Notes under the pieces: model-generated
The model's database searches: none
Told to the model about the DNA's origin: nothing
The model's input: only the letters and a program-made list of their open reading frames with translations
Position numbers and translations under genes: made by a program
Part shown: piece by piece, positions 3,956 through 8,163 of the stretch
How positions within the stretch are numbered: position 1 is the first letter of the stretch
Layout: every line of letters starts with the position of its first letter
DNA from: Diaphorobacter aerolatus
GTDB taxonomy: Bacteria > Pseudomonadota > Gammaproteobacteria > Burkholderiales > Burkholderiaceae_C
Direction of reading: 5' to 3'
Length of the DNA: 64,000 bases
NCBI RefSeq assembly: GCF_014489535.1
Contig: NZ_CP060783.1
Coordinates: forward strand, 1,922,001 to 1,986,000

Positions 3956-5152
3956 TCACACCCGCTCGAAGATACCTGCAGCGCCCTGCCCCATGCCCAC
4001 GCACATCGTGACCATGCCGTACTTGAGCTTCTTGCGTTGCAGCGCGTGCACCACGGTGGCCGAACGAATGGCGCCGGTCGCGCCGAGCGGGTGACCCAGA
4101 GCGATTGCGCCGCCCATCGGGTTCACCTTGGACATGTCGAGTCCGAGCGTGTTGATCACCGCAAGCGACTGCGCGGCGAATGCCTCGTTGAGCTCGATCC
4201 AGTCCATGTCGTCCTGATGAAGTCCGGCGTAGCGCAGTGCGGCGGGTATTGCCTCGATCGGGCCGATGCCCATGATTTCCGGCGGCACGCCCTTGCTCGC
4301 ATAGCTCACGAATCGCGCGAGCGGCGTGAGCCCGAAGCGCTTGATGGCCGCTTCGCTGGCGAGAATCAACGCACCGGCGCCATCGCTGGTCTGCGAGCTA
4401 TTGCCTGCGGTGACCGAGCCGCGCGCGGCGAAAACCGTGCGCAGTTTGGCCAGTCCTTCCAGCGAGGTATCGGGACGAGGACCTTCGTCGAGATTCACGG
4501 TGCGCGTGCTCTGCACGGTCTCGCCTTTGGCGAGATTCAAACCGCGATCCGCCACTTCGATGGGCATAATCTCGCTCGCGAATTCACCGGCCTGCTGCGC
4601 CGCAATCGCGCGGCGGTGTGATTCGAGCGCGAACGCATCCTGCGCCTCGCGCGTCACCTTCCACTGCTGCGCCACCTTCTCCGCCGTGAGACCCATGCCG
4701 TAGGCAATGCCCACATCCCCATCACGCTCGAAGATCGACGGAGAAAGCGACGGCGCGTTGCCCATCATCGGCACCATGCTCATGCTCTCCACGCCAGCCG
4801 CGATCATCACATCGGCCTCGCCCACACGAATACGGTCGGCAGCCATGGCCACCGCCGACAGGCCCGAGGCGCAGAAACGGTTCACCGTGATGCCGCCGAC
4901 GCTGGTCGGCAAACCCGCCAGAACCGCACCGATACGGGCCACGTTCAGCCCCTGCTGCGCTTCCGGAATCGCGCAGCCGCAGATGATGTCTTCGATCGCC
5001 TTGGGATCGAGGCTCGGCACCTGCGCAAGCGCGGCCTTCAAGGTCGTCGCGAGCAGATCATCCGGACGGTAGTTGCGAAAAAAGCCCTTGTGCGAACGCC
5101 CGATCGGCGTGCGCGTAGCGGCAACGATGTAGGCGTCTTGCTGTTGTTTCAT
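3956..5152 (-). CDS. Acetyl-CoA C-acyltransferase (thiolase)
   Basis: A 398-residue thiolase that cleaves 3-ketoacyl-CoA in the last step of beta-oxidation. Visible active-site elements are the nucleophilic Cys in NRFCASGLSAVAMAA (about residues 85-99), the GHPLGATG His motif and the C-terminal Cys in CVGMGQG. The frame continues upstream to 5281, but that part is simply translation of a palindromic repeat; the ATG at 5152 begins the family sequence MKQQQDAYIVAATRTPIG. It is paired functionally with the FadB-like gene upstream, though a repeat-bounded DUF559 gene now separates them. Confidence 0.95.
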   Translation of the reverse strand: MKQQQDAYIVAATRTPIGRSHKGFFRNYRPDDLLATTLKAALAQVPSLDPKAIEDIICGCAIPEAQQGLNVARIGAVLAGLPTSVGGITVNRFCASGLSAVAMAADRIRVGEADVMIAAGVESMSMVPMMGNAPSLSPSIFERDGDVGIAYGMGLTAEKVAQQWKVTREAQDAFALESHRRAIAAQQAGEFASEIMPIEVADRGLNLAKGETVQSTRTVNLDEGPRPDTSLEGLAKLRTVFAARGSVTAGNSSQTSDGAGALILASEAAIKRFGLTPLARFVSYASKGVPPEIMGIGPIEAIPAALRYAGLHQDDMDWIELNEAFAAQSLAVINTLGLDMSKVNPMGGAIALGHPLGATGAIRSATVVHALQRKKLKYGMVTMCVGMGQGAAGIFERV

Positions 5153-5192: not shown

Positions 5193-5672
5193 TCAACGAG
5201 CGTCAATGAGGGCTGAATTGCTCCCTCGCCCGCTTGCGGGAGAGGGTTGGGGTGAGGGTGACGTCGGCTCTCGCAAGGCATGCAGGATCACCTCCAGCAC
5301 ACCCTCCAAATTGCCGATGACTTCGTGATTCCAGAAGCGCAATACTTGCCAGCCTGCGCTCTTCAAAAACAGCGTACGGTGCTCGTCGTAAACGATGGCG
5401 CTGCCGTGAGCATGCTGACCACCATCCAGTTCAATGGCCAGACGCTTGGGCACACACGCGAAGTCCACGAAGTAGCTACCCACCGGGTGCTGGCGACGAA
5501 ACTTCACCCCGTCGATTTGCCTGGACCGAAGTTTCTGCCAAAGCATGTGTTCGGCATCGGTCGAATTCTGCCGAAGCGCGCGGGCGCGCGGCACCCTCAC
5601 CCCATCCCTCTCCCGCTCGCGGGAGAGGGGGTTTTCCGGGCGGTGCTGGATGTCGCGCGCTTCGGCAAGCAT
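5193..5672 (-). CDS. DUF559 endonuclease-like protein inside inverted repeats
   Basis: The core (about residues 30-135 of a 159-residue frame) is a DUF559 domain: RALRQNSTDAEHMLWQKLRS, then SYFVDFACVPKRLAIELDGG and GWQVLRFWNHEVI. This belongs to the very-short-patch-repair/restriction-like nuclease superfamily; the D of VDF and the E.DGGQH segment are the expected metal-site residues. Both ends of the frame are translation of two inverted repeat copies (LSRERERDG at the front, SPSPQPSPASGRG at the back), so the true start is uncertain: ATG 5672, or GTG near 5600 or 5594. It sits between two genes of a beta-oxidation operon and has no functional link to them, which suggests insertion. Its biological substrate is unknown. 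Confidence 0.75.
   Translation of the reverse strand: MLAEARDIQHRPENPLSRERERDGVRVPRARALRQNSTDAEHMLWQKLRSRQIDGVKFRRQHPVGSYFVDFACVPKRLAIELDGGQHAHGSAIVYDEHRTLFLKSAGWQVLRFWNHEVIGNLEGVLEVILHALREPTSPSPQPSPASGRGSNSALIDAR
5221..5260 (-). repeat. Palindromic repeat, copy 1 (inverted partner of 5592-5630)
   Basis: A 40-bp element containing a near-perfect hairpin (ccctcgcccgc-tt-gcgggagaggg, one mismatch) followed by TTGGGGTGAGGGTG. Its reverse complement matches the copy at 5592-5630 at about 35 of 40 positions. The two copies bound the DUF559 gene in opposite orientation. REP-like elements of this type with CTCTCCC and GGGGTGAGGG are common in proteobacterial genomes. Confidence 0.8.
5592..5630 (+). 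repeat. Palindromic repeat, copy 2
   Basis: CACCCTCACCCCA then a perfect 11-bp stem (ccctctcccgc-tc-gcgggagaggg, 5606-5629). It is the inverted counterpart of the copy at 5221-5260 and lies at the 5' end of the DUF559 gene. The pair could form a long stem around the cassette or act as transposition ends. Confidence 0.8.
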
Positions 5673-5674
5673 GA

Positions 5675-8076
5675 TCAGTTCCTCACAGGCTTGCCGGTAT
5701 TCAGCATGCCGAGAATGCGCTCATGCGTCTTCGGGTGCGCGATCAGATGCGTGAACGCCTTGCGCTCGAGCTTCATGAGGTATTGCTCGTCGACGAGCGT
5801 GCCCGCGTCCACATCGCCGCCGCAGACGATCTCTGCGATCAGGGTGGCGATGTGTTGGTCGAACTCGCTGATGAAGCCGCCGTCGCGCATGTTCACGAGC
5901 GATCCGCGAATCGTGGCGATGCCGCTGCGGCCCGCGACCGGGAACGTGCGGGCAAGCGGCGCACGCCAGCCCGAGTCCGCCATCGCCTTGGCTTCGTTAA
6001 TCGCCACGTGCAGCAACTCGTCCTTGTGCGCGACGATGATGTCGCTGTCCAGCAAATACCCGAGTTTGCGGGACTCGATGGCGCTGGTGCCGACCTTGGC
6101 CATGGCCGCAGCGGTGAAGCCTTCGGTGAGAAACGGCAGCAGGTCCTTGCCGGTGCTCGTCGCCGCATTCTCGGCCGCGCGGCGGGCAATATAGGTCAGG
6201 CCACCCGCGCCCGGAACCAGACCGACGCCGACCTCCACGAGGCCGATGTAGCTCTCCATGTGCGCCACGCGGCGCGCGGAGTACACCGCCAGCTCGCAGC
6301 CACCGCCAAGCGCCATGCCATGTATCGCAGCCACCACCGGCACCTGCGCGTATCGCATGCGCAGCATCATGTTCTGCAGCTCCTGCTCGATGCTTTCGAT
6401 TGCATCCGCTCCGCCGACTACGAACGCGGGCATGGTTGCTTCCAGATCGGCACCCACGCTGAATGGCGCGTCGCCTGACCAGATCACCATACCCTTGAAA
6501 TCGCTTTCGGCCACGTCAACGGCTTCCATCAGCCCTTCCATGACCTCGGGACTGATGGCGTGCATCTTGTTCTTGATGCTGGCGATCAACACCTCACCAT
6601 CGAGTGTCCAGGTGCGCAGCGCCCGGCTTTCGGCAATCGTGGTGCCGGCGGTCTGCCAATCGGGGAGATTGGTTTCGCCGAGCAACTTTTCGGGAAAAAT
6701 CTGGCGCTCGTAGACCGGCAGTTCACGGCGGGGAATGAACTTGCCCTGCGATGCGCTCCACGAGCCCTGCGCGGTGTGCACGCCACCGGCGTCGGCCACC
6801 GGCCTTCGAACACCCACTGGGGCAATGGCGCATTGGCAAGTGCCTTGCCCGCGTCGATGTCTTCCTGAACCATCTTCGCCACTTCAAGCCAGCCGGCTTC
6901 CTGCCACAGCTCGAACGGGCCTTGCTTCACGCCGAAACCCCAGCGCATGGCCTGATCGATATCGCGCGCAGTGTCGGCGATGTGCTCAAGATGAACCGCA
7001 GCGTAGTGAAAACTGTCGCGCAGGATCGCCCACAGGAACTGGCCTTGCGCGCCTTCGGCACCGCGCAGCAGCTTCAGGCGCTCGCCTGCGGGCTTCTTGA
7101 GCATGCGTCCGTAGACCTCGTCGCTCTTTTGACCCGCTGGAATGTATTCCTCGCTGTCCATCTCGAACTGCAGGATGTCGCTACCCACTTTCTTGAAGAA
7201 CCCGGCCTTGGTTTTCTGACCGAGGTTGCCCAGGTCGAGCAGTTTCTGCAACACGGCGGGTGTGCCGAAATTACCGTAGAACGGATCGGTTTCAAGGCTC
7301 AGGTTGTCCTGCAGCGTCTTGATGACATGGGTCATCGTATCGAGCCCCACCACGTCGGCCGTGCGGAACGTGCCGCTCGATGCGCGCCCGAGTTTCTTGC
7401 CGGTGAGATCGTCGACCACGTCGTAGGTCAGGCCAAAGTTCTCTGCCTGCTTCATCGTCGAGAGCATTCCCGCGATGCCGATGCGGTTGGCGATGAAGTT
7501 GGGCGTATCGTGCGCTCGCACCACGCCTTTGCCGAGCGTCGTCGTCACGAAGGTTTCGAGCTGATCGAGCACCTCGGGATTGGTCGTTGGCGTGTTGATC
7601 AGTTCCACCAGTTGCATGTAGCGCGGTGGATTGAAGAAGTGGATGCCGCAAAAGCGCGGCTTGATCGCATCGGGCAGCGCTTCAGAGAGCTTGGTGATCG
7701 ACAGGCCCGAGGTGTTCGACGCTACCAGCGCATGCTTGGCAACGAACGGTGCGATCTTGTGATACAGGTCGAGCTTCCAGTCCATGCGCTCGGCAATGGC
7801 TTCGATGATCAGGTCGCAGCCCTTGAGCAGCTTCATGTGCTCCTCATAATTCGCGGGCTGGATCAGATCGGCATCCTCGGCGACGCCGATCGGCGAGGGC
7901 TTGAGCTTCTTGAGATTGGCAATCGCCTTCTCCGCAATCGCGCTCTTGGCACCTTCCTTCGCAGGCAGGTCGAACAGGATCACGGGCACCTTCACATTGA
8001 CGAGATGGGCCGCAATCTGCGCCCCCATCACGCCCGCGCCGAGCACGGCGACTTTTTTCACCTGGAATCTGGACAT
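5675..8076 (-). CDS. 3-hydroxyacyl-CoA dehydrogenase/enoyl-CoA hydratase, FadB-like (apparent frameshift near 6800)
   Basis: An 800-residue bifunctional beta-oxidation enzyme read across one frameshift. The N-terminal NAD-binding Rossmann motif is VLGAGVMGAQIAAH (about residues 10-23), followed by the C-terminal dehydrogenase domain. A crotonase domain lies near the C-terminus, with SVGADLEATMPAF and VAAIHGMALGGGCELAVYSA. The first frame loses homology after LPQWVFEG; the next frame picks up with VADAGGVHTAQGSWSASQGK. One extra C or G in the ccgg stretch at 6798-6804 joins them. The ATG at 8076 has AAAGGAAA upstream. The stop lies only 2 bp before the DUF559 frame. It feeds 3-ketoacyl-CoA to the thiolase. 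Confidence 0.88.
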
Positions 8077-8163
8077 AGGGTTGGTTTTCCTTTGAATTTT
8101 TTCTTCGGCCATGCATACGATGGCTGCGGAGCAGGTCAGGACAGCAGACGCACCCAAGGGGCG

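Follow-up and report, generated by a model that had tools for sequence, protein, structure and literature searches.

Within the analyzed window of 64,000 nt (Diaphorobacter aerolatus, contig NZ_CP060783.1, positions 1,922,001 to 1,986,000), a 159-aa DUF559 ORF (5193–5672, minus strand; PF04480, E 5.8e-40) lies between a FadB-like gene (5675–8157, minus strand) upstream and a thiolase gene (3956–5152, minus strand) downstream in the same operon. The ORF begins two bases after the stop of the FadB-like gene and runs in the operon's direction; its PF04480 domain core, without the repeat-coded ends, spans 5274–5588 on the minus strand (E 1.2e-39). Although the mechanically listed thiolase ORF begins within the unit (5281), its conserved start is at 5152. 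The FadB-like gene, carrying 3HCDH and ECH domains, is split over two overlapping ORFs (6586–8157 and 5675–6817; overlap 6586–6817), as if by a frameshift near position 6790 that might be real or a sequencing error.

Two inverted elements bound the DUF559 gene. Their arms (5223–5274 and 5578–5629) are 81% identical over 52 nt, while the element proper comprises 36 bp (CCCTC[GT]CCCGC-NN-GCGGGAGAGGG-NN-GGGGTGAGGG) at 5223–5258 (plus strand) and 5594–5629 (minus strand). Each copy consists of a predicted stem-loop (CCCTC[G/T]CCCGC..GCGGGAGAGGG) followed by two free bases and a G-rich tail (GGGGTGAGGG); in the copy at the 5′ end of the gene, stem-loop and tail occupy 5606–5629 and 5594–5603, respectively, and both tails point at the gene. 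The elements supply codons near both ends of the ORF (N-terminal ENPLSRERERDGVRV, C-terminal SPSPQPSPASGRGS), and the repeat also accounts for the recurrent SPHPNPLPQAGEG-like ends of predicted DUF559 proteins. From outer end to outer end, the unit measures about 410 bp. The original prediction, which described a small DUF559 gene enclosed by inverted repeats that contribute coding sequence to its ends, was thus confirmed.

The 23-base core of the element occurs twice in the window, compared to 0.00 expected over 100 dinucleotide shuffles, and 24 times in the whole 4.95-Mb genome at up to three mismatches, with no hit for the reversed control pattern. Of these 24 copies, 14 form seven REPIN-like inverted pairs with the polarity of the gene's flanks and starts 71–73 bases apart, two flank the gene, and eight are otherwise placed. 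Arrays were found near 1.069 and 3.634 Mb, the latter being a 704-bp array of pairs (3634312–3635015; nine core copies) that is missing at the matching place in two related genomes, G018 (same genus) and G147, where 75 and 15 bases stand instead (sampled genomes and loci are hereafter numbered with the prefixes G and L, respectively, G000 being the window's genome). In contrast, PF04480 occurs only once in the genome.

The repeat corresponds to a known orphan, namely the intrastrand triplex motif TM_ECO, formerly BoxC or PIT (PMC4666352), with which it shares stem, loop, G-rich third strand, a length of about 36 nt, and the occurrence as inverted pairs. Known since the 1990s, the motif was reported with 23 copies in E. 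coli and, by the count of that study, in more than 260 genomes, but without a function, partner gene or mobilizer; triplex formation in vitro was published for the E. coli motif. Copy 9 of that study (1351204–1351239 of MG1655) lies beside ycjD (1351407–1351760), annotated as a DUF559 gene, and we found a second, truncated copy to overlap the 3′ end of ycjD (positions 4395–4420 of the retrieved stretch L203). Neither ycjD nor fabI is contained in the main text of that paper; the link to DUF559, including ycjD next to copy 9, is our own. More generally, searches of the literature, restricted to open-access papers, most of them seen only as list entries, and thus not covering subscription papers on BoxC, revealed no paper that we recognized as reporting this link.

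To test whether the pairing is general, loci were selected by the PF04480 profile alone, comprising the 19 strong hits from 150 genomes of the family and 89 further loci from the top of the hit list of a phylum sample of 398 genomes (skipping places already sampled, one locus at a contig end and one short locus; some genomes contributed several loci). Of these 108 loci, 70 had a BoxC-like element (up to two mismatches to seven forms) within 250 bp, 45 of them on both sides, whereas control windows 1.1–1.4 kb away had one in only 1 of 216 cases. A pattern-free search identified flanking inverted repeats at 76 loci, and the union of both criteria amounted to 94 of 108, leaving 14 loci without any flanking repeat. 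Applied to pseudo-genes with a slightly wider inner margin, the same inverted-repeat criterion was fulfilled by 1 of 139 in the named loci (see below) and 0 of 139 in the window, and weak PF04480 hits (E 3e-13 to 1.7e-7) yielded 0 of 11. The tail of the nearest element pointed towards the gene in 98 of 115 cases.

A second set consisted of the best 80 of 573 relatives from named genomes, five of which had too little flanking sequence. Of the remaining 75, 62 had a BoxC-like element, 54 an inverted repeat, and 72 either; this set may be enriched, because the ends of the query are themselves encoded by the repeat. It included Variovorax, Xanthomonas, Pseudomonas, Sphingomonas, Bradyrhizobium, Legionella, and MAGs labelled Chloroflexi, Planctomycetota, Nitrospirae and Gastranaerophilales, with tails towards the gene in 82 of 101 cases. 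Among seven further loci inspected out of 20 listed, those of A. lipoferum, Sinorhizobium, Deinococcus and Pseudanabaena showed inverted copies, although in Deinococcus the tails pointed away from the gene. A. brasilense and Shinella showed elements on one side only in the 220 bases inspected, and in enterobacteria, too, the copies lay mainly on one side of ycjD. In N. gonorrhoeae (L340), a DUF559 gene related to the solved structure 3HRL was located between two long direct, rather than inverted, repeats that each hold a BoxC-like hairpin.

At the genome level, presence of the gene was associated with repeat number. Within the family, at least 10 copies were found in 16 of 19 genomes with a strong PF04480 hit (E under 1e-30, a cut-off set at the gap in the hit list), compared to 8 of 131 others (Fisher p 4e-13). 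The eight exceptions were G015 (78 copies), G142, G109, G044, G061, G065, G018 and G060, whereas G140, G017 and G049 encode DUF559 but have few or no copies of the searched forms; G148 had 11 reversed-pattern hits against 17. In the phylum sample, at least one exact hit was found in 69 of 110 genomes with a strong hit to the compact gene (E at most 1e-12) and in 18 of 288 others (p 2e-31), including repeat-rich genomes without a compact DUF559 gene (G287 with 92 copies, G346 with 36). A few genomes in this sample had high reversed-pattern counts (G398, 319 against 403; G337, G513 and some others). These p-values ignore ancestry, and an independent-pair test on 53 genomes yielded at most four informative pairs, all in the expected direction (p 0.125).

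Nuclease lineage and repeat type were found to change together. Two repeat types (V1, CCCTCTCCCGC; V2, CTTCCCCC or CCTCCCCC) were assigned to the gene flanks by eye, and in the 13 of the 19 family genomes where both type and counts could be scored, the majority of full-length dispersed copies (counts including the flanking copies) was of the flank's type (V2 hosts, 8 of 8; V1 hosts, 5 of 5; Fisher p 8e-4). Left out were G017 (V1-like flank, no counts), G004 and G120 (a third flank type; V2/V1 counts of 0/26 and 11/0, respectively), and G045, G049 and G140 (other types, no counts). In 14 of the 19 genomes the gene lies at the same fadB–thiolase junction, in the operon's direction in all 14. For these, the DUF559 tree splits V1 from V2 (support 99/98 on 126 columns; 95/93 on 101 core columns without the repeat-coded ends). 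In contrast, the thiolase and fadB tree places the window's genome (V1) among V2 hosts (100/100) and G005 (V2) among V1 hosts (100/98), and rejects V1 as one clade (AU p 8e-46), while the converse test of the host grouping on the DUF559 core tree fell just short of significance (p 0.059). When the five other family members were added, V2 remained one group with weaker support (87/93) and V1 took in locus L041.

Two observations had been named beforehand as speaking against the original prediction, namely the same gene without repeats at the same place in all relatives, or repeats unassociated with DUF559 genes, and neither was made: the gene does sit at this junction in 13 other sampled relatives, but each of these has the repeat at the gene, in most cases on both sides (on one side in L034 at the cut-off used). 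Inspection of 50 thiolase loci, 48 of which have the FadB-like neighbor, revealed different states of the site. The full unit was present in G000, G020 and G035 (a repeat-rich genome with 160 core copies), an inverted pair without the gene in G045, and a solo hairpin in G044. Of the 38 gaps seen in full, 32 measured 18–48 bp and contained no element, among them that of G018, whereas four others (G042, G002, G006, G025) carried different sequence; seven long gaps without DUF559 were seen only in their first 60 bases. In G042, G002, G006 and G028 (loci L184, L190, L200 and L309; G028 seen only in its first 60 bases), the junction carries a different, mutually similar insert (AAGCTACTGCG...CTCACGTAC-like), as if it were a hotspot for repeats.

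A clean empty site with a target duplication, as expected for a classical IS or MITE, was found neither at the fadB–thiolase junction, where the empty site of G018 shows no alignable duplication, nor at dispersed sites of the window's genome compared to G018 and G147 (an eighth site, S1, gave no usable match), nor at three E. coli BoxC-pair sites, although flanks were often too diverged. At the latter (hrpB–mrcB, alx–sstT and fepB–entC), pairs are absent or shortened in some strains: at two of them (hrpB–mrcB in L352, alx–sstT in L354 and L355) the pair has collapsed to a single hairpin, and whole absences are imprecise. As for ycjD itself, at least 80% of its region is present in 3362 of 5426 E. 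coli genomes, but genomes without it carry other genes there (TetR regulator and RND efflux genes in three of three such stretches; eefRABCD according to PMC12817139), so this is no empty site.

The AlphaFold model of the protein (mean pLDDT 80) best matched 3HRL, the endonuclease-like protein ngo0050 of N. gonorrhoeae (Z 15.6, rmsd 1.4, 48% identity over 94 residues), which would be the product of the gonococcal locus mentioned above if that locus, as we assume, is ngo0050 itself. Further matches were the EDxHD homing endonuclease I-Bth0305I (3R3P; Z 12.1), Vsr (1CW0; Z 10.9) and, weakly, TnsA (Z 7.2), with mitoribosomal and FASTK RAP-type domains scoring in the same range as Vsr; such a search cannot show the absence of other folds. 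A profile search likewise returned 3HRL (3e-40) and 3R3P (1e-4). E41, D70, D83, H87 and D96 are invariant in 67 aligned rows, and we infer that they represent the EDxHD set. These results place the protein, by predicted fold, in the Vsr/EDxHD branch of PD-(D/E)XK nucleases, in line with the previous placement of YcjD near Vsr (PMC1189080), but, in contrast to I-Bth0305I, we saw no intron and no NUMOD-type DNA-binding extension, and the gene is flanked by dispersed repeats.

The arrangement resembles a REPtron, in which a RAYT (TnpA_REP) gene is associated with GTAG REPs and REPINs (PMC3116915, PMC8266576, PMC3733652): one enzyme gene is bordered by inverted palindromic repeats that are also dispersed as gene-less inverted pairs and tandem clusters, there are several cognate repeat flavors, and the unit mostly resides at its site. 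However, the ORF matches only PF04480 and PF18741 rather than the HUH Y1 transposase family PF01797, whose single, weak hit in this genome lies elsewhere (1.74 Mb), and the repeats possess a G-rich third strand but no GTAG at either end. CGTC REPs, said to lack a transposase (PMC3733652), were not supported as the partner repeat either, as the stem is of the CCCTC type with a GTGAGGG tail and CGTC-like motifs were only sporadic near the loci scanned for them. Nor do RAYTs seem to be needed, since PF01797 is missing from 7 of the 19 DUF559 genomes, including the repeat-rich G020, G043, G074 and G100 with 30–61 copies (G043 and G074 being 80% and 90% complete).

Our favored explanation, to which we assign a probability of roughly 0.6, is that the locus represents a REPtron-like unit of a kind we found no report of, with a Vsr/EDxHD-type nuclease gene instead of a RAYT between two inverted copies of its cognate BoxC element (a hairpin plus a third, G-rich strand), and that the dispersed pairs of the same polarity are its gene-less derivatives. 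What our data demonstrate is the strong association of gene and repeat, the polarity of the flanking elements, the matching of nuclease lineage and repeat type, and the existence of gene-less pair and solo forms at the same junction. By inference only, the protein would act as a nuclease that recognizes the folded single-stranded element (or its base) and nicks it, so that the element is copied, converted or moved, and the same reaction would keep both ends of the unit alike. As with RAYTs, the unit would be resident, here at the fadB–thiolase junction, while the short pairs form the dispersed population. The original prediction, which likened the layout to REPtrons and proposed that a Vsr-like nuclease helps spread or maintain the repeat family, is therefore partly supported: layout and association are strongly supported far beyond this locus, whereas action of the nuclease on the repeat and transposition remain inferred, the target duplication it envisaged was not found, and the unit looks mostly resident at one site rather than freely jumping. 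The repeat-rich genomes without a compact DUF559 gene, the repeat-poor genomes with one, the 14 loci without flanking repeats, and the deviating layouts in enterobacteria, N. gonorrhoeae and Deinococcus also weigh against this reading.

In its widest form, which we consider about as likely as not, DUF559 nucleases would be the dedicated mobilizers of the BoxC superfamily, constituting an ancient class of repeat–enzyme pair, independent of RAYT–REP and spread over several bacterial phyla, in which a Vsr/homing-type nickase acts on a hairpin or triplex DNA element and spreads it as gene-less inverted pairs. E. coli YcjD would then be the partner, active or relict, of the E. coli BoxC family. BoxC elements lack a known function and mobilizer, and DUF559 proteins are widespread with hardly any assigned role; linking the two turns both into one testable system, in E. 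coli K-12 among others. If correct, single-copy nucleases outside the HUH class can also support dispersed palindromic repeats, so enzyme-driven repeat spread arose more than once.

Of the alternatives, the most serious, albeit unlikely, is that DUF559 is a free-standing homing endonuclease that cuts the empty fadB–thiolase junction (and other fixed sites) and is copied in by repair, the BoxC arms merely being the ends of the cassette and the dispersed copies by-products. The location of 14 of 19 family copies at one junction in the same direction, the scattered presence and host-tree conflict, which fit horizontal replacement at one site, and the second-best fold match to I-Bth0305I speak for this view. 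Yet, it does not explain why repeats, not sites, recur at DUF559 genes across many unrelated loci and phyla, why flank type matches dispersed type, or why repeat number goes with the gene. Both models could also hold, with a homing-type nuclease whose recognized DNA is the BoxC end.

Somewhat less likely still, BoxC elements might be spread by another agent, such as RAYTs or replication slippage, with DUF559 genes caught between two copies or tolerated there without acting on the repeat. This would be in line with the repeat-rich genomes lacking a compact DUF559 gene, one of which (G015) has 20 Y1-transposase matches, with the slippage-like collapse of E. coli pairs, and with the single weak RAYT-type hit in the window's genome. 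However, the DUF559 genomes without PF01797 speak against this reading, and a passenger would be expected neither to be one particular gene family across phyla nor to track repeat type. It is improbable that the nuclease instead polices the repeat or other mismatched DNA (Vsr-type repair, limiting hairpin or triplex DNA) and is kept nearby by chance or selection, not for spreading it. While its predicted fold is Vsr-like, a Caulobacter DUF559 protein, VsrA, is linked to damage at a methyltransferase's unmethylated motifs (PMC12907096), and BoxC loci are reported as unstable in E. coli (PMC4666352), a policing enzyme should go with fewer, not more, copies, whereas the association is positive and the repeats bound the gene with a preferred polarity. 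Chance or a base-composition artefact of G-rich sequence, suggested only by the few genomes with high reversed-pattern counts, is refuted by the control windows, pseudo-genes, weak DUF559 hits, shuffles and reversed pattern in the own genome.

Certain DUF559 genes possess much longer inverted ends (about 100 and 53 bp; L096 and L116 of G344, and L343 on a Deinococcus plasmid) that are more like transposon ends. Similarly, the Legionella anisa locus (L261) shows an inverted match of 98 bases across the gene, and transposase/DUF559 segments of L. pneumophila are reported as recombination hotspots (PMC12308824).
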